Source: Burkholderia sp. Nafp2/4-1b
GTDB lineage: Bacteria > Pseudomonadota > Gammaproteobacteria > Burkholderiales > Burkholderiaceae
Direction: 5' to 3'
Length of the DNA stretch: 64,000 nt
Assembly: GCF_003635165.1 (NCBI RefSeq)
Contig: NZ_ML058597.1
Span: 310,001-374,000, forward strand
Made by a program: the position numbers and the translations under genes. Of this stretch, positions 33,748-41,035 are shown piece by piece. The notes below the pieces were generated by a model. The model ran no database searches, was not told the origin of the DNA, and saw only the letters and a program-made list of their open reading frames with translations. Position 1 is the stretch's first letter, and every line of letters begins with the position of its first letter.

Positions 33748-34143
33748 TTACCAGAGCGTCTTGACGTGCGCGTATGCGCGGATTTTTTCGTCACGGGTGA
33801 CGAGCGGCGCACCGAGCCGCCGAGCGGTGGCAACGATCATGCGGTCGGCCGGATCCCTGTGGAACGCGCCGGGCAGCGCGGTGGACTTGGCGGCGATGTC
33901 TGCGTCGATCGGCACGAAGCGCATGCCGTCGATCTGCGCGACCGTGGCGAGCCACGCGTCGACGTCCATCGTCAGCGCGAGGCGCTCGTTGCGCACCAGC
34001 ATCGCGATTTCCCATGCGGAAATTGCGGACGCAGCGAGCGCGCCTTCGCCGAGCGCACGATCGATTGCGCTTCGGGCCTTCTTGCTGAGCGACGGATCGC
34101 CCGCCACCCACCACACCAATGCATGTGTATCCAGCACGATCAC
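33748..34143 (-). CDS. VapC-type PIN-domain toxin
   Basis: A 131-aa PIN ribonuclease. Conserved acidic residues are Asp5 (VIVLDTHALVWW), a Glu in SAISAWEIAML and the Asp pair in HRDPADRMIVATA, enough for the metal site. The preferred GTG start (34,143) overlaps the antitoxin stop as GTGA; a TTG five codons upstream is possible. It is the second gene of a two-gene toxin-antitoxin operon with the Phd-type protein. VapC toxins usually cleave tRNA or rRNA. Confidence 0.9.
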   Translation of the reverse strand: MIVLDTHALVWWVAGDPSLSKKARSAIDRALGEGALAASAISAWEIAMLVRNERLALTMDVDAWLATVAQIDGMRFVPIDADIAAKSTALPGAFHRDPADRMIVATARRLGAPLVTRDEKIRAYAHVKTLW

Positions 34144-34379
34144 CGCGACGCCTCCCAATCATCTTCCGCAATCGGATCGAGAGGATTGTCGTAGCGCATG
34201 ACCGAGCCGCGCAATATGTCCAACGGCCGGGTTTCGCGTGCGCGGTACGGCCGGATTTCCAGCGCCGGCTTGCCGTGGTCGGTGACGATGAGGCTTTCAC
34301 CCGACGCCTCGACGAGCCTGAAATATTCGAGTGCGCGAGCCTTGAATTCGGATTTCGATACGGGTGCGTGCGGCATCAT
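34140..34379 (-). CDS. Phd/YefM-type antitoxin
   Basis: A 79-aa antitoxin. The N-terminal Phd/YefM DNA-binding fold (VSKSEFKARALEYFRLVEAS, then SLIVTDHGKPALEIRPY) precedes a flexible acidic C-terminus that would neutralise the PIN toxin. There is no ribosome-binding site in front of the double ATG; a perfect palindrome lies immediately upstream instead. It pairs a Phd-type antitoxin with a VapC-type toxin, a common mixed arrangement. Confidence 0.9.
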   Translation of the reverse strand: MMPHAPVSKSEFKARALEYFRLVEASGESLIVTDHGKPALEIRPYRARETRPLDILRGSVMRYDNPLDPIAEDDWEASR

Positions 34380-34498: not shown

Positions 34499-35182
34499 CT
34501 ACGCATCCGCCCACTTCCTCAACAGGTTGTGATAAATCCCCGTCAATGAAATGACCATCGGGTCGCTCGCGCCTTTTTCCGCGGAAAGCGCCTGAATCTG
34601 CGTATCGAGCTGAAACAGCAGCGTGCGGTCGCCGTCGTCGCGCACCATGCTCTGGATCCAGAAGAACGACGCGACGCGCTCACCACGCGTCACAGGCATC
34701 ACGCGGTGCAGGCTCGATGCCGGATACAGCACGAGATCGCCGGCCGGCAGCTTCGCGCGATGCACGCCATACGTATCCTCCACGCACAGCTCGCCGCCGT
34801 CGTACGCATCGGGTTCCTCGAGAAACAGCGTCGCCGACAGATCGCTGCGCACGCGAAAATCCGTGCCGCGCAGCAGCCGGATCGCATTGTCGACATGCGT
34901 GCCGAACGTCTCGCCGCCTTCGTAGCGATTGAACAGCGGCGGAAATACCTTCAGCGGCAGCGCCGCCGAAAAGAACAGCGGATGTCGCGCGAGCGCATCC
35001 TGGATCGCATCGCCGATCGCACGCGCGACCGGCGAATCTTCCGGCAACTGCCGGTTCCGTTTTGCCAGCGCCGACTGCGCGCCGGAAGTCGCGTTGCCGT
35101 CGACCCAGTCGGCGGTATCGAGCATCTCGCGGCATTGCGCGACCAGTGCCTTGGTCAGCACGCCGGGGATATGAAGCATCAT
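34499..35182 (-). CDS. piuC: PiuC-type Fe(II)/2-oxoglutarate dioxygenase
   Basis: A 227-aa PKHD-type hydroxylase. The iron ligands His96, Asp98 (FGTHVDNAI) and His159 (SSLHRVMPV) and the 2-oxoglutarate-binding Arg169 are present. PiuC genes typically sit beside PiuA-type siderophore receptors in iron-regulated clusters, as here: its start overlaps the Sel1 gene, which follows the receptor gene, on one strand. The substrate is not known with certainty for the family. Confidence 0.93.
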
Positions 35183-35934
35183 GATTCACTTTCCATGCCG
35201 TAAGACGGCAACTGCAGCGCCGCCGCGCGCAACGCATCGAGCGGCGACGCTGCGAGATACGCGCGCATCTTCGCGACGAACGCAGGCGTTGCCGTGGCCG
35301 GCACGCGCGCGAGCCAGCGGAGCGCGTCGTCGATGCGCCCGCGATCGGCAAGCAGCCGCGCATAGTTGAACTGGCCACGAAAATCGCCGGCCTCGGCGGC
35401 ACGGCGATAGTGGTCGAACGCGGCGTCGGTATCGGCGGCGACGACCCAGCCGTCCTCGTAGAAGCCGCCGATCAGGTTGATCGATTTCGCATGGCCGAGC
35501 GCGGCCGCACGGCGGAACCAGTCGAGCGCGGCGGTGCGATCCTCGTCGACGCCGCTGCCGAGCGCGAGCGCCGTCGCGTAGTTGTACATGCCCCAGTCGA
35601 GCCCGGCCTGCGCGGCGAGCCGATACCAGTACACGGCCACCGGCGCGCACGCGGCCGTTCCCCAGCCGAACTCGTAGCAGCGGCCGAGCATGTTCATCGC
35701 CATCGGGTGGCCGGCGCGCGCCGCGTGCCCGAACCAGCCGAACGCGGCGGCCGGATCGCGCGCGACGCCGTGTCCGTCGAGCAGGTACTGTCCGTAGACG
35801 GCCTGCGCATCGACGATGCCATTTTCGGCGGCCGCCGCGACCCACGCGGCGGCGCGCTCGGGCGGCCCCGCCAGGATGTCGGCGAACGCGCGCGGCGACA
35901 CCGATGCGAGCGCCTTCAGCGAGACGGCCTCCAT
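35179..35934 (-). CDS. Sel1-repeat (TPR-like) protein of the iron module
   Basis: A 251-aa protein of about five Sel1-like repeats (for example [62 protein letters not shown]) between residues 40 and 205. Sel1 repeats form a helical scaffold for protein contacts. No signal peptide, so probably cytoplasmic. It lies 3 bp after the TonB receptor gene and overlaps piuC by 4 bp. Such a gene between piuA and piuC is often seen, but its role is not known to me. Confidence 0.9.
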
Positions 35935-35937
35935 CGA

Positions 35938-38181
35938 TCAGTAGCGCGCATTCAGCGTGACGAACGCCGACCGGCCCGGCGCGATCGACGCGTAGTGCGC
36001 CGGATACGCCTGATCGAAATACGTGCGGTTGAACAGGTTGTTCACGTTCAGCTGCAGGTCGAGCTTTTTGTTGATCCGGTATTGCGCCATCGCGTCGAAG
36101 CGCCAGTACGACGGCACCGCACGCAGGTTCGCCGGATCGCCGAACACTTCCGACATGTAGAACGCACCGCCGCCGACGGTGAACTTCGGCGTCACGTCGT
36201 AGTTCGACCACATCGTCAGGCTGTGCTTCGGCGTGTTCGGAAAGCGGTGGCCGTCGTTCGCGGCGTCCCTGCCGTTGTCGCGCAGTTCGCTCTTCATGTA
36301 CGTGTAGCCGCCGAACACCTGCCACTGCTTCGTGATCTGCCCGGCGACACCGAGCTCGAGACCCTGTACGCGCTTGTTGCCGACCATCGCGTACTGGTTG
36401 TTCGGCAGCGTCACGCGCGCGTTCGTCGTGTCGATCTGGAACAGCGCGGCGGTCAGCGACAGCTTGTCGTTCAGCACGTTCCATTTCGTGCCGAGCTCGA
36501 TGCTGCGGTTTTTCTCGGGCGCCATCTGGTCGGCGTTCGGGCCAACGCCGCCGCGGCCCGGCGTGAGCGACTGCGTTTCGCTGCCTTCGCCGAGCAGCAT
36601 GCCGGCCGGCGTCGACGACGTCGCGTAAGACGCGTAGATGCTGCCGTTCTGCGCGGGCTTGAACACGAGGCCGGCCTGCCAGTTGAACAGCGTGTCGTCG
36701 CGCGTATAGGTCTTGCCGCCGTTCGCCTTGGTGTCGGTGAAGCGGGTCGAGTAGTCGTCGACGCGCACGCCGGCGTTCACCTGCCAGCGCGGCGTGAGCT
36801 CGATCGTGTCGAAGCCGTAGATCGACTTCGTCGTGGTGCGCGCATGCGCATAGTCGTTGTTGCGCGTGACGGAGCCGGCCCACGGATCGTTCGGGTTCGG
36901 CGACCACAGGCTCGTGCAGTTGTAGCCCGACGGCGCGCCGATGCCTTTCTGGCAGATCGTGCCCTTGTCGGTCGCGATCGTGTACGAATCGCGCTTGCCC
37001 CATTCGCGCGACAGCTCGATGCCGGTCGTGAAGCTGTGCCTGAACGGGCCGGTGCGGAATTCGCCGAACAGTTCGGTCAGGTTCGCGATGCTGTTGATCG
37101 AGCTGTTGCGGTTGTTGTTGCGGCGCCAGACACGGCCGTTGACCACGTTGCCCTGGCTGTCGTCCGGCTGCGTCCAGATGTAGTCCTGCGTCGATTCCGT
37201 GTAGCGCGTGGTGTTGCGCACCGTCAGGTTCGGCGTGATGTCGTGCTCGATCTTGATCGTGCTGATGTCCGACGTGGTCTTGCGGAAGTCGCGGTCGATC
37301 AGGCCGTAGAAGTTGTGACGGTCGACGGGCGCCGGATAGATCGTGTCGACGTTCGCGGGCTTGTTCGACGCCGTGTAGAAGTACGGAATGCCGCCGTCGG
37401 GCATGTCGTCCGTCTGCAGGTGGTAGTAGCTCGCGGTCACGCGCGTCGGCGTGCCGAGGCCGAACGCGATCGACGGCGCGACGCCCCAGCGCTCGTTGTT
37501 GACGGCGTCGCGGCCGGCGACGTCGTTGTTGTGGGTCATCAGGTTCAGGCGGAACGCGGCGTGATCGGCGAACTGCCAGTTGCCGTCGGCCGTGAAGCGG
37601 CGATAGCGGTCGGTGCCGAGGCCCGCGCTCGCGGCGGCCGTCGTGCCGAGGTGCGGCGCCTTCGTGATCAGGTTGATGCTGCCGCCTGCGCCGCCGCGGC
37701 CGCCGTACGCGCCGTCGGAGCCCTTGGTGACCTCGACGCGCTCGGTGTTGAAGATCTCGCGCGTGGTCGCGCCCGTGTCGCGCATCCCGTCGACGAACAT
37801 GCTGCCCTGGGTGTCGTAGCCGCGGATGAACGGACGGTCGCCGAGCGGGTTGCCGCCTTCGCCGGCGCCGAACGTGATGCCGGGCACGGTGCGCAGCGCT
37901 TCGGTGAGTGTTGCCGCGCCGCTGTTCTGGATCAGTTCCTGCGGGATCACGGTGACCGACTTCGGGGTGTCGACGAGCGGCGCGGTGAATTTCGCGGACG
38001 CGGAGAAGTCGGCCTTGTAGCTGTGCTCGGTCTTGCCCTGGATCTCGATCGGCGCGAGATGGCCTTCGGTGCTGACGGGCGCGGGCGGCGGCGTGCCATC
38101 GGCGAACGCGGGACTCGCCGCGAGCACGCTGCACAGGGTGGTGAACTTGCCGAGCTTCAACTCTTCAGGACGGGACTTCAT
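35938..38181 (-). CDS. piuA: TonB-dependent catecholate siderophore receptor (PiuA/Fiu type)
   Basis: A 747-aa outer-membrane ferric-siderophore transporter. A short signal peptide ends near Ala27 (AASPAFADG). The plug domain has VDTPKSVTVIPQELIQNSGA (TonB-box/plug start), VPGITFGAGEGGNPLGDRPF and ERVEVTKGSDGAYGGRGGAGG. The beta-barrel ends in the terminal aromatic signature FVTLNARY. It is first in the piuA-sel1-piuC operon. Upstream lies a Fur-box-like sequence, so iron repression is likely. PiuA/Fiu receptors take catecholates and also admit siderophore-antibiotic conjugates. Confidence 0.95.
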   Translation of the reverse strand: MKSRPEELKLGKFTTLCSVLAASPAFADGTPPPAPVSTEGHLAPIEIQGKTEHSYKADFSASAKFTAPLVDTPKSVTVIPQELIQNSGAATLTEALRTVPGITFGAGEGGNPLGDRPFIRGYDTQGSMFVDGMRDTGATTREIFNTERVEVTKGSDGAYGGRGGAGGSINLITKAPHLGTTAAASAGLGTDRYRRFTADGNWQFADHAAFRLNLMTHNNDVAGRDAVNNERWGVAPSIAFGLGTPTRVTASYYHLQTDDMPDGGIPYFYTASNKPANVDTIYPAPVDRHNFYGLIDRDFRKTTSDISTIKIEHDITPNLTVRNTTRYTESTQDYIWTQPDDSQGNVVNGRVWRRNNNRNSSINSIANLTELFGEFRTGPFRHSFTTGIELSREWGKRDSYTIATDKGTICQKGIGAPSGYNCTSLWSPNPNDPWAGSVTRNNDYAHARTTTKSIYGFDTIELTPRWQVNAGVRVDDYSTRFTDTKANGGKTYTRDDTLFNWQAGLVFKPAQNGSIYASYATSSTPAGMLLGEGSETQSLTPGRGGVGPNADQMAPEKNRSIELGTKWNVLNDKLSLTAALFQIDTTNARVTLPNNQYAMVGNKRVQGLELGVAGQITKQWQVFGGYTYMKSELRDNGRDAANDGHRFPNTPKHSLTMWSNYDVTPKFTVGGGAFYMSEVFGDPANLRAVPSYWRFDAMAQYRINKKLDLQLNVNNLFNRTYFDQAYPAHYASIAPGRSAFVTLNARY

Positions 38182-38504
38182 GGTGCGCTTCGACCTCGCT
38201 GTGTGGCCCCCGCGGATGACGTGCTACGGAAACGTGTACGCCGCCGGGGATTATTACGATTTGTTTTCAGCCCGCATTCTATGTAATTTTCTGTTGAATG
38301 AGAAGCGTTCTTGTTTGCGTTTGTAAGATGAAGGTTGACGAATGTTACGGAGGGGGCGAAAGCTTGTGGGGCGGGGAAGGATGACCGATTGGCCGAGTGT
38401 TGCGGGCGTGGCGGGCGGCTTACAGTGGTTGTATCTTCCCTCGTCCAAGATGACAGCAGAGTGATAATATGACTGCATTGAAAGCAAATTTGGTGAGGCG
38501 CATC
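38182..38504. other. Divergent intergenic region, iron receptor and fitAB
   Basis: A 323-bp gap with below-average GC. It carries the Fur-box-like site (38,297-38,315). Nearer fitA is a GATAAT-like -10 candidate (about 38,462) with no clear -35. No gene seen. Confidence 0.5.
38297..38315. promoter_or_regulatory. Fur-box-like site upstream of piuA
   Basis: AATGAGAAGCGTTCTTGTT agrees at 15 of 19 positions with the Fur-type sequence AATGAGAATCATTCTCATT and is itself an imperfect palindrome. It lies 116 bp upstream of the piuA start. Confidence 0.55.
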
Positions 38505-38744
38505 ATGCCCGTGATCACTGTTCGAAATCTGCCCGACGAGGTGCATCGCGCACTTCGAATCCGTGCTGCACAACATGGCCGCAGTACCGAGGCCGAGGTC
38601 CGCGACATCCTGGAGCAGGCTGTTCGGCCCGGAGGGCGGCCGAAACTGGGAACGTTGCTCGCTGATATCGGGCGAGAGGCCGGCGGCATCGATTTCGAGA
38701 TTCAGCGCGACAACACGCCAACCGATCCGATGAGCTTCGAATGA
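38505..38744 (+). CDS. fitA: FitA-type ribbon-helix-helix antitoxin
   Basis: A 79-aa antitoxin. The N-terminal ribbon-helix-helix is PVITVRNLPDEVHRALRIRA then HGRSTEAEVRDILEQAV, the FitA pattern. The C-terminus (LLADIGREAGGIDFEI) is the toxin-wrapping part. GAGG precedes the ATG at 38,505; an upstream in-frame ATG at 38,469 is less likely. Its stop overlaps fitB as ATGA. Normally FitA with FitB represses its own promoter. Confidence 0.92.
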   Translation: MPVITVRNLPDEVHRALRIRAAQHGRSTEAEVRDILEQAVRPGGRPKLGTLLADIGREAGGIDFEIQRDNTPTDPMSFE

Positions 38745-39160
38745 TCCTGGTCGATACCAACGTCATTTCCGAGCCGCTGCGGCGCGAGCCGAGCGCAGCG
38801 GTGATCGAATGGCTCGACGCGCAGAACGTCGACACGTTGTTTCTAGCCGCGATCAGTCTGGCGGAGATGCGATTCGGCGTGGCCGCGTTGGCGGTGGGGC
38901 GCAGGCGGGACTCGCTGCACCAAAGCCTCGAGCAGCGCGTCGTGCCGTTGTTTCGCGGCCGGATCCTGCCGTTCGACGATGCGGCCAGCCAGGCGTATGC
39001 GAGCCTTCGCGCGAAGGCGCGTGCGACGGGCAACGCGATGGCGCCCGCCGATGGCTTCATCGCGGCAATCGCCGCAGCGAACGGCCTGATCGTGGCCACG
39101 CGCGACGTCGCGCCGTTCGAAGCAGCAGGCCTGCGCGTGATCGACCCGTGGGCCAACTGA
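38741..39160 (+). CDS. fitB: FitB/VapC-type PIN-domain toxin
   Basis: A 139-aa PIN ribonuclease with Asp5 (MILVDTNVISEPL), Glu near 42 (ISLAEMRFGVAAL), Asp near 104 (APADGFIAAIAA) and Asp near 122 (VATRDVAPF), the full four-acid site of FitB-like toxins. It overlaps fitA. It is the second PIN toxin in 5 kb; the two toxins flank the piu iron module. Confidence 0.92.
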   Translation: MILVDTNVISEPLRREPSAAVIEWLDAQNVDTLFLAAISLAEMRFGVAALAVGRRRDSLHQSLEQRVVPLFRGRILPFDDAASQAYASLRAKARATGNAMAPADGFIAAIAAANGLIVATRDVAPFEAAGLRVIDPWAN

Positions 39161-39200
39161 CGCGGGGTTGGCTGCGCCTGCATTGCCTGCATCGAGCATG

Positions 39201-39228
39201 AAAAACGCGCCGTGCAAGGCGGCGCGTT
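39201..39228 (-). terminator. Terminator of the HTH-ATCase gene
   Basis: Positions 39,204-39,211 pair perfectly with 39,221-39,228 (8 bp, 9-base loop). On the minus strand the stem runs straight into TTTTT (complement of 39,201-39,205). It lies about 75 bp beyond the pyrB-like stop. Confidence 0.65.
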
Positions 39229-39301
39229 GGGTGCGTTACGTCAGCGCGCGACCGGTGAACCGAAGCAATCCCAAGTCCGGCCGCGCAACACCGGGCTCAG
39301 A

Positions 39302-40594
39302 TCAATCGATCCCGTGAAACACCGCATCCTCGGGCCCGAGGTATGCCGGCGGGCGCCACGTCGCGTCGCGCATCGAATGCTGGACGAGATTCTCGACGCC
39401 GAGCAGCACCGCGAAGATCGCCATCCGCACCGGAATGCCGTTGTCCGTCTGGCGGAAGATCGCAAGCCGCGGGTCGCGGTTCAGGTCGACCGACAGGTCG
39501 TTCGCGCCGGGCCGGCTGTCGCGCGGCAGCGGGTGCATGATCAGCGTGTCCGGCTTGCACGCGGAATCCACGAGCGCCTGGTTGATCTGGAAATCCGGCG
39601 TGTAGCCTTCGAACGACTCGTCGGTGAAGCGCTCCTTCTGGATGCGCGTCGCGTAGACGACGTCCGCGCCGCGCAGGCCGGCCGCGAGGTCGTTCGTCTG
39701 CTCGATCACGTGGCCGTTGGTCGCGATCTGGTCGATGATGTACGCCGGCATTTCGAGCGTCGGCGGCGACACGAGCGTGAACTTCAGCCCGCGGTACAGC
39801 GCAAGCAGCTTGACGAGCGAGTGCACGGTGCGGCCGTACTTCAGGTCGCCGACGAGCGCGATGTGCGCGCCGTCGACGATCTTGCCAAGCCGCGAGAACT
39901 CGCGCTGGATCGTATAGAGGTCGAGCAGGGCCTGGCTCGGGTGTTCGCCCGGGCCGTCGCCGCCGTTGATCACCGGCAGGTTGGTCGCGCGCGCGAATTC
40001 GGCAACCGAGCCTTTCTCCGGGTGGCGGATCACGAGTGCATCGACGTAGCCGGCCATCACGCGGCTCGTGTCGTAGATCGATTCGCCCTTGGCCATCGAC
40101 GAGAACGTGAAGCCGGTCGTGTCGCACACCGAGCCGCCGAGCCGGCAGAAGGCCGCGCCGAACGATACGCGCGTACGCGTGCTGGCCTCGAAGAACAGGT
40201 TGCCGAGCACCGCGCCTTCGAGCACGCGCGAGATCTTGTGGCGGCGCGCGATCGGCTGCATCACGTCGGCGACGCGGAACAGCGCCTCGACCGAGTCCCG
40301 AGAGAACTGGTCCACCGAGATCAGCTGCGGCTTGCCTTCGAACAGGAATTGCTTCGCGAGGCCTTGTTTGTCTACGCTTTGCGTATAGTCTCCGCCATCC
40401 GGCGAGCGTTCGACGATTTCCGACACGAAGCGCTCGACGATCTCGGGCATCCCGCGCGATTCCTGCGAGTCGTCCGGCAACAACCAGGTATCCAGTGCAC
40501 GACGGCTGACGCCGATGCGGCTCGCGAACGCTTCGCGGGTCATGTTGAGGCGGCGCATCGCGTCGCGCAGGAAGGCTTGCTGGGGAACGGTCAT
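39302..40594 (-). CDS. pyrB: Aspartate carbamoyltransferase with N-terminal helix-turn-helix
   Basis: A 430-aa protein, about 100-120 residues longer than a normal ATCase catalytic chain. Residues 8-62 look like an XRE/Cro-type DNA-binding domain (MTREAFASRIGVSRRALDTW, then RGMPEIVERFVSEI). From about residue 78 on it is a complete ATCase: FFEASTRTRVSF (134-145) for carbamoyl phosphate, GGDGPGEHPSQ, LVGDLKYGRTVHSL and the HPLPR aspartate loop. ATCase makes carbamoyl-aspartate in pyrimidine synthesis. The start at 40,594 follows AGGGTG. No pyrI or pyrC is adjacent. The gene's promoter is overlaid by a perfect palindrome, with a near copy inside the gene, suggesting the protein represses itself. 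Confidence 0.9.
   Translation of the reverse strand: MTVPQQAFLRDAMRRLNMTREAFASRIGVSRRALDTWLLPDDSQESRGMPEIVERFVSEIVERSPDGGDYTQSVDKQGLAKQFLFEGKPQLISVDQFSRDSVEALFRVADVMQPIARRHKISRVLEGAVLGNLFFEASTRTRVSFGAAFCRLGGSVCDTTGFTFSSMAKGESIYDTSRVMAGYVDALVIRHPEKGSVAEFARATNLPVINGGDGPGEHPSQALLDLYTIQREFSRLGKIVDGAHIALVGDLKYGRTVHSLVKLLALYRGLKFTLVSPPTLEMPAYIIDQIATNGHVIEQTNDLAAGLRGADVVYATRIQKERFTDESFEGYTPDFQINQALVDSACKPDTLIMHPLPRDSRPGANDLSVDLNRDPRLAIFRQTDNGIPVRMAIFAVLLGVENLVQHSMRDATWRPPAYLGPEDAVFHGID
40372..40388. promoter_or_regulatory. Intragenic copy of the pyrB palindrome
   Basis: Read on the minus strand it is TATACGC-AAA-GCGTAGA, differing from the promoter palindrome core only in the 3-base spacer and one arm base. 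It encodes residues 70-75, the junction between the helix-turn-helix and the ATCase domain, about 240 bp from the promoter copy. Confidence 0.5.
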
Positions 40595-40613
40595 CGGTGG
40601 CACCCTGATGAAA

Positions 40614-40634
40614 AATATACGCGATGCGTATATT
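40614..40634. promoter_or_regulatory. Perfect palindromic operator at the pyrB promoter
   Basis: AATATACGC (40,614-40,622) and GCGTATATT (40,626-40,634) form a perfect 9-bp inverted repeat with a 3-base spacer. It covers most of the -10 element and the expected transcription start of the HTH-ATCase gene, the classic repressor position. Confidence 0.75.
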
Positions 40635-40657
40635 AGTTCGCAGGTGGGCGAAGTCAA
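40630..40657 (-). promoter_or_regulatory. Sigma-70 promoter of pyrB
   Basis: On the minus strand TTGACT (40,657-40,652), 16-bp spacer, TAATAT (40,635-40,630). Transcription should begin near 40,622, about 28 bases before the start codon. Confidence 0.7.
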
Positions 40658-40734
40658 GGAAAATCTGCGCGAGCGATTGCGCGGCCGCCCGCAACGTCGC
40701 CTCGGTCTCTACTGGCGCGCGGCAGCCGTCTCCG

Positions 40735-40740
40735 TATAAT
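40735..40740 (+). promoter_or_regulatory. -10 element before the entericidin gene
   Basis: A perfect TATAAT 90 bp before the entericidin ATG; no good -35 hexamer is visible 16-18 bp upstream, so recognition may depend on another factor. Confidence 0.4.
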
Positions 40741-40830
40741 CAGGTCAGGCCCCGTGTCCTGCGCGCCGCAGGGCGCCACGCCGCACACGATTCGCCCGGT
40801 CGGGCTTGTTGATTCGAAAGGAGAACGAGA

Positions 40831-40965
40831 ATGACGCGTACGATTGCTGCAGTGCTGCTGGTGGTGACCGCCGCGCTCGCCGGTTGCAATACCGTTGCAG
40901 GCGTGGGGCAGGACATTTCGAAGGGCGGCCAGGCGATCAGCGACTCGGCTGAAAAGGCCAAGTAA
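40831..40965 (+). CDS. Entericidin A/B-type small lipoprotein
   Basis: A 44-aa lipoprotein precursor: hydrophobic signal (IAAVLLVVTAALAGC) with the lipobox LAGC and lipidated Cys19, then NTVAGVGQDISKGGQAIS, the entericidin signature. The mature peptide would be only 26 residues, anchored in a membrane. An AAAGGAG site is 8 bases from the ATG, and a strong terminator follows 25 bp after the stop, giving a single-gene unit. In Escherichia coli entericidins act as a stress-linked antidote/toxin pair; only one is here. Confidence 0.9.
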   Translation: MTRTIAAVLLVVTAALAGCNTVAGVGQDISKGGQAISDSAEKAK

Positions 40966-40987
40966 GCCGCCGGGTTCCGGTATGCAG

Positions 40988-41035
40988 AAGGCGCCGGCCC
41001 GTCCCGCGATTGCGGGGCGGGCCGGCGCCTTTTTT
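40988..41035 (+). terminator. Rho-independent terminator after the entericidin gene
   Basis: An 18-bp GC-rich stem (40,990-41,007 with 41,012-41,029, one G-T pair) and GATT loop, followed by six T residues. Confidence 0.9.

Follow-up and report, generated by a model that had tools for sequence, protein, structure and literature searches.

The aspartate carbamoyltransferase (ATCase) of Burkholderia sp. Nafp2/4-1b analysed here carries an XRE-like helix-turn-helix (HTH) domain ahead of an intact catalytic part, and it very probably binds two sites of its own gene and regulates its own expression. The sequences support the domain, the two sites, the position of one of them on the promoter, the uniqueness of the motif in the genome and selection on both sites; from these we infer direct binding, and repression rather than activation. 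An enzyme acting on its own promoter had been proposed in a preliminary description of this DNA, and the proposal has gained ground, as the site is conserved in six families, lies on the -10 box, is found only at this gene in its genome and is absent from six close relatives that lack the HTH. The gene, called HTH-ATCase below, lies in a window of 64,000 nucleotides (the whole stretch of DNA that was analysed, to which all positions refer) and has the following features.

39302..40594, minus strand: HTH-ATCase gene (PyrB-like), 430 aa, with its ATG at 40594 and matches to NF008853 and to Pfam OTCace_N and OTCace
40409..40582, minus strand: predicted XRE-like HTH domain, residues 5-62
39350..40327, minus strand: catalytic part, residues 90-415, with active-site residues intact and a CP-loop reading F164-S-S-M-A-K
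40630..40657, minus strand: predicted sigma-70-like promoter, TTGACT (from 40657), 16 bp, TAATAT (to 40630)
40614..40634, unstranded: predicted operator 1, a perfect 9+3+9 palindrome, AATATACGC-ATC-GCGTATATT, lying on the -10 box; the genome has one other match
40371..40387, unstranded: predicted operator 2, intragenic, TATACGCAAAGCGTAGA, beginning at codon 70, in the stretch that links HTH and enzyme, and under synonymous constraint

HTH-ATCase is a full-length member (residues 1-430 of 430) of NF008853 (PRK11891), the long second ATCase of Burkholderia, with 896.3 bits against a curated cut-off of 560; the description line of that family is silent on an HTH, operators or autoregulation. Pfam carbamoyltransferase domains match residues 91-230 and 242-396, and the closest named matches, among them B. 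ambifaria, B. latens and B. seminalis, are 99% identical. The open reading frame originally assigned to the enzyme, 39302..40660, does contain the ATCase gene, but its upstream part is a TTG extension and the start used by the family is the ATG at 40594. The description of the enzyme as catalytically intact agrees with the 13 catalytic positions checked, all of which are kept in 182 of 182 HTH-bearing relatives; in E. coli numbering and by their roles we take these positions to be S52, T53, R54, T55, S80, K84, R105, H134, Q137, R167, R229, Q231 and L267. The same genome also carries a class-A ATCase (contig C65) that is followed by a dihydroorotase-like ORF, both named by reading their translations and the ATCase also by TIGR00670. 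This class-A enzyme is 33% identical to HTH-ATCase, which is thus the second ATCase of this genome. In 6 of 17 HTH-bearing genomes HTH-ATCase is the sole ATCase above the TIGR00670 cut-off, and it is therefore presumably the working enzyme in those six.

Burkholderia has been described as having an ATCase of ~430 residues with the motif HPLP beside one of ~340 residues with HPGP, and whether one of them is catabolic was left open (PMC4581275). HTH-ATCase has the HPLP motif. Neither "DNA-binding" nor "DNA binding" occurs in the main text of PMC4581275, and its passages on the two ATCases bring up no HTH, operators or autoregulation. Duplicated aspartate carbamoyltransferase genes are on record for B. 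thailandensis (PMC3966863), and a gene listed as a pyrB in B. pyrrocinia (ABD05_RS25685) was reported to show a log2 decrease of 1.02 in response to root exudate (PMC10061817).

The extra N-terminal HTH had been placed at residues 8-62, and its XRE-like character holds up in profile comparison. A profile of 44 family members matched a profile of 13 XRE domains from the same genome with an hhalign probability of 93.3% (E 2.7e-7), while 60 column-shuffled profiles gave at most 3.6% and the reversed profile 0.1%. Pfam HTH_3 aligns to residues 9-34 below its gathering cut-off of 23 (15.5 bits for the full chain; 18.9 bits, E 0.0015, for the isolated domain) and is matched at E up to 0.1 by 22 of the 44 members. 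Searching the PDB with a profile built from the HTH alignment turned up nothing significant (best E 0.2), and the AF2 model of the full-length chain (from an alignment of 36 sequences) was poor, with a mean pLDDT of 47 and low-confidence helices at residues 5-15, 20-27, 31-37 and 44-62. Thus, the label XRE-like is well supported by the profile, not by structure. When 398 Pseudomonadota genomes were scanned with the HTH profile (up to 15 candidates scored per genome), the domain was present in 6, once in each and always on this ATCase.

A domain that serves merely for oligomerisation or for docking of a partner, on an enzyme without a regulatory role, would suit the Pfam score below the cut-off and would have a parallel in other ATCases, whose assembly relies on additional subunits or partners. 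It is nevertheless hardly credible, since the profile comparison says HTH and the domain goes with the palindromic site described below. Additionally, the mean frequency of the top residue is 0.85 in the domain (residues 5-62) versus 0.89 in the enzyme, compared with 0.51 and 0.53 in the linker stretches that flank codons 70-74. The domain is read here as a probable DNA-binding HTH.

The promoter proposed earlier, TTGACT-16 bp-TAATAT, is the sole sigma-70-like promoter detected in 39150-40900, where shuffled sequences average 0.2. The perfect 9+9 bp palindrome said to overlie it is exact at 40614-40634 and does overlap the -10 box, covering five of its six bases; what had been missed is that the motif recurs within the gene. 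The palindrome is the single match within 3 mismatches in the 64-kb window, and 100 shuffles gave none. Its 17-bp core was the motif used in the whole-genome search, and TATACGCNNNGCGTATA occurs at up to 1 mismatch in two places in the whole 7.79-Mb genome, both of them in the HTH-ATCase gene (backwards control, 0). Among 16 other HTH-bearing genomes, 18 of the 23 motif matches lie at the HTH-ATCase gene, and the other 5 equal the count of the backwards control (5). Two of these five, from two genomes of a single genus, precede a receptor-like gene, and the rest lie within or beside ORFs that have no visible link to pyrimidines; all five are taken as background. Three of the 16 genomes (G178, G250 and G152) have no site at 1 mismatch, and four HTH-less genomes have no motif match at up to 1 mismatch. 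The sequence before the receptor-like gene is identical in the two genomes (L119 1501-1517 and L218 1501-1517), and that gene is possibly a second target, or the sequence the site of another regulator.

The upstream site was followed through 182 HTH-bearing loci, which comprise 83 near relatives from Burkholderia and Paraburkholderia (the 80 best of 424 loci, together with the gene itself, L084 and L085) and 99 others (the 14 loci L086-L099 and 85 of L125-L211), with L223-L225 outside the 182; L085 and L058 lie on contigs of equal length and share the same upstream sequence, so that one genome or more has probably entered the count twice. The motif TATRCGCNNNGCGYATA is found with at most 2 mismatches upstream of 176 of the 182 loci, in six families of the order and down to ~64% identity, and 180 of the 182 upstream 80-mers differ. 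A sigma-70-like promoter whose -10 box lies on or adjoins the left arm accompanies 154 of the 176 upstream sites, versus a mean of 44.0 and a highest count of 65 in 200 runs with the -35 region shuffled. The six exceptions are five reduced AT-rich genomes (region GC 0.31-0.32), in which the HTH is retained in diverged form and no site can be recognised, and L159, which has only a variant 4 mismatches away. Upstream of L090 a perfect 17+1+17 bp palindrome surrounds the operator core, from about -53 to -19 relative to the ATG. HTH residue 30 covaries with the third base of the spacer (81 cases pair S with C, 69 pair K with T and 25 show other combinations; n=175), but this covariation was set aside as confounded with clade.

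Six close relatives (55-68% identical; L100-L103, L157 and L158) lack the HTH, and the site is found in 0/6 of their upstream stretches, measured from the start of the match and not from a known start codon. In a tree of the catalytic part, three of them, L100, L157 and L158 (genomes of 0.7, 0.9 and 2.0 Mb), nest among HTH-bearing rows and have therefore probably lost both HTH and site, with long branches that leave their exact placement unsure. An independent-pairs sign test of HTH loss against site loss was underpowered and not significant, with 2-4 pairs and few independent events. Among 11 more distant HTH-less carbamoyltransferases there was one weak upstream match (L110, 2 mismatches). 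The small-genome relatives L152-L158 and L100 have kept the enzyme and show no site; three of them are also without the HTH.

This distribution bears on whether the palindromes might be operators of a separate transcription factor, with the HTH of the ATCase doing something else. Candidates for such a factor are at hand in the 21 HTH_3 domains that the genome encodes at E 1e-6 or better, HTH-ATCase not being among them, and both the site-like sequence upstream of the HTH-less L110 and the five reduced genomes that retain the HTH without a site lean in this direction. Weighing against a separate factor are the confinement of the motif to the HTH-ATCase gene in its own genome and the occurrence of the site at 176 of 182 HTH-bearing ATCases versus none of six close HTH-less ones. 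A regulator with a single target that is absent wherever the HTH of its target is absent would be the less simple account, and a separate factor is judged very improbable. Binding by the HTH of the ATCase itself is the reading that these occurrences favour.

Operator 2 (40371-40387) lies 245 bp, centre to centre, from the core of operator 1 (40616-40632) and begins at codon 70; codons 70-74 read TAT ACG CAA AGC GTA in close relatives. The codon of V74 is GTA in 82 of 82 close relatives, though GTA makes up 6.7% of the Val codons in the gene. Mismatches to operator 2 in close relatives stand at 0.145 observed versus 3.43 expected under random synonymous choice (lowest of 2000 permutations, 2.99). 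For family f4 (82 sequences, motif TATRCGCNNNGCGYA) the figures are 0.94 observed versus 3.51 expected (lowest, 3.05), with five reduced genomes and 3 rows gapped at codon 70 omitted from the permutation; of the 106 genomes over the cut-off in this family, 92 were examined. Synonymous entropy at codons 70-74 is 0.066, the lowest among 257 five-codon windows, the next being 0.216. Because the codon bias goes beyond random synonymous choice, the intragenic site is not a mere by-product of the protein sequence and, judged by codon usage, is held by selection on synonymous codons. It is present at no more than 2 mismatches in 145 of the 182 HTH-bearing loci and missing in 37.

Since operator 2 lies within the mRNA and each site could form a 5-bp stem with a 3-nt loop (UACGC-loop-GCGUA), the repeats might instead be RNA hairpins that the protein binds to control translation or mRNA stability. 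However, the -10 box lies on or adjoins the left arm, so that transcription should start within operator 1 and leave the left arm of this site out of the transcript. Stem-breaking combinations of the type A..C are present at 5 of the 176 upstream and 12 of the 145 intragenic sites, and there was no Rfam match in 39000-41000; on these two grounds the hairpin was rejected, with next to no probability left to it. Both repeats are thus best taken as candidate DNA sites.

The spacing between the two sites ranges from 232 to 281 bp across 144 loci, and strict helical phasing was sought in these loci and not found. This variable spacing without strict phase lends no support to a rigid loop; the linker may be flexible, or the role may be one other than looping. 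With up to 2 mismatches allowed, 32 of the 182 loci, including L097-L099, show the upstream site alone; in L097 a second, weaker copy with 3 mismatches lies 30 bp from the upstream site, which has 2. In family f23 (5 genes found among 28 genomes), which has a different linker, two upstream sites lie 45-46 bp apart, the weaker of them with 3 mismatches. Two sites at one gene thus seem to be a frequent theme although their placement differs. The varying spacing and the loci with an upstream site alone would also suit a protein that binds both sites but activates transcription, or acts as an elongation roadblock at operator 2, instead of repressing through a loop. Activation sits poorly with the general observation that proteins bound over a -10 box usually obstruct RNA polymerase, and a roadblock leaves unexplained the two sites of f23, both of which are upstream. 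These modes of action are regarded as unlikely, and repression is the reading preferred.

In the mechanism that we propose, HTH-ATCase would be a trigger enzyme whose N-terminal HTH binds the two operators of its own gene and represses transcription. At operator 1, which covers the -10 box, it would block RNA polymerase, and operator 2, ~245 bp downstream in the coding sequence, would strengthen the repression, most likely via DNA looping; for looping itself the chances are put at about even. ATCases of this fold are catalytic trimers. A palindrome would take one pair of HTHs, and pairing between or within trimers would free HTHs for a second palindrome; catalytic trimers whose HTHs act in pairs would thus have HTHs to spare, which fits two operators and looping. 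The loop would then be made by one ATCase oligomer carrying several HTH pairs. The probable signal would be occupancy of the active site, with UMP bound there (as in plant ATCase) favouring repression, and carbamoyl phosphate together with aspartate relieving it.

The candidate effector comes from the CP-loop. In Arabidopsis ATCase, replacement of F161 by Ala abolishes inhibition by UMP, and the abstract of the same paper calls the CP-loop exclusively conserved in plants (PMC7878868). The corresponding residue of HTH-ATCase, F164 (window 40103-40105), is shared by 181 of 182 HTH-bearing relatives and by all 6 of the close HTH-less ones; none of 10 more distant carbamoyltransferases has it, the class-A ATCase of the same genome included. 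The rest of the loop, set against S162, A164 and A165 of Arabidopsis, has Ser in 182/182 and Ala in 180/182, but A164, a UMP contact in the plant enzyme, is Met in 182/182. As the Phe of the CP-loop is needed for UMP binding in Arabidopsis ATCase and is present here, UMP is a plausible co-repressor, although by this analogy the assignment is tentative, possible rather than probable. The near-fixed Phe in a bacterial clade also bears on the origin of UMP-inhibited ATCase. The plant enzyme (Arabidopsis PYRB, 6ypo) is the best PDB match by a small margin, with 244 bits over residues 90-398 only and without the HTH. The complete picture, in which a single polypeptide closes a feedback loop on pyrimidine synthesis, is doubtful as a whole: the oligomer would read UMP against carbamoyl phosphate at its active sites, its HTHs would draw promoter and coding sequence into a loop that represses the gene, and operator 2 and the linker peptide would constrain each other.

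By kind, HTH-ATCase would belong with the trigger enzymes PutA and BirA. The DNA-binding fold of PutA is a ribbon-helix-helix, a ligand made in the active site of BirA drives its DNA binding, and PepA and PyrH are not known to have a fused HTH. PutA, a proline dehydrogenase, directly represses its own put operon (PMC6978683), and BirA, a biotin ligase and bio repressor, has its DNA-binding domain at the N-terminus of the enzyme and has lost it in some lineages (PMC5343134). HTH-ATCase resembles PutA as an enzyme that would repress its own operon and differs in being another enzyme and in having one operator within the coding sequence; whereas BirA represses the bio genes, the only target of HTH-ATCase detected in its own genome is its own gene. 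PepA and PyrH are described as E. coli trigger enzymes in the transcriptional control of carAB, which serves carbamoyl-phosphate synthesis (PMC6245113). They act on carAB, whereas HTH-ATCase would act on the ATCase gene. The lac operon combines a main operator at the promoter, an auxiliary operator inside lacZ and an oligomeric repressor. Unlike lac, HTH-ATCase would unite the repressor and the regulated enzyme in one chain, and its intragenic operator encodes the interdomain linker.

Among the matches listed in a search of open-licence PMC titles and abstracts (a scope outside which subscription papers and theses fall), there was no HTH on an ATCase and no DNA-binding ATCase. As far as seen within that literature, three things are new: the enzyme involved, its restriction to a single target gene, and an operator that forms part of the sequence coding for the interdomain linker. 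ATCase is a textbook case of allosteric feedback, and this bacterial group seems to regulate it at the level of the gene, by means of the enzyme itself and with an operator inside the coding sequence. If the proposal is true, it would help to answer what the long second ATCase of Burkholderia does (PMC4581275), and the committed enzyme of pyrimidine synthesis would join the trigger enzymes as a compact model of an active site signalling to DNA. The proposal can be tested directly, given two sites defined to the base and natural variants without HTH or sites.

The class A PyrB-PyrC' arrangement (Pseudomonas type), represented in this genome by the C65 copy, is expected to catalyse the same reaction; it has HPGP, no HTH and no operator-like site. 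HTH-ATCase departs from class A in having HPLP, not HPGP, and in having no adjacent pyrC', its flanks being a FitA-like/PIN pair and a small lipoprotein-like ORF. The neighbouring features are as follows.

38469-39160, plus strand: VapBC-type pair, convergent with the ATCase gene and immediately downstream of it, of a FitA-like ribbon-helix-helix antitoxin and, after it, a PIN-domain protein
40831-40965, plus strand: 44-aa lipoprotein ORF, divergent from the ATCase gene
34499-38181, minus strand: row of genes for a TonB-dependent receptor, a Sel1-repeat protein and a PKHD-type 2OG-Fe(II) hydroxylase
33748-34379, minus strand: second PIN protein with a Phd/YefM-like antitoxin (below the Pfam cut-off), ~5 kb away

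The 44-aa ORF we take to be an entericidin-like lipoprotein, and the row at 34499-38181 is, we presume, possibly an iron-uptake operon.
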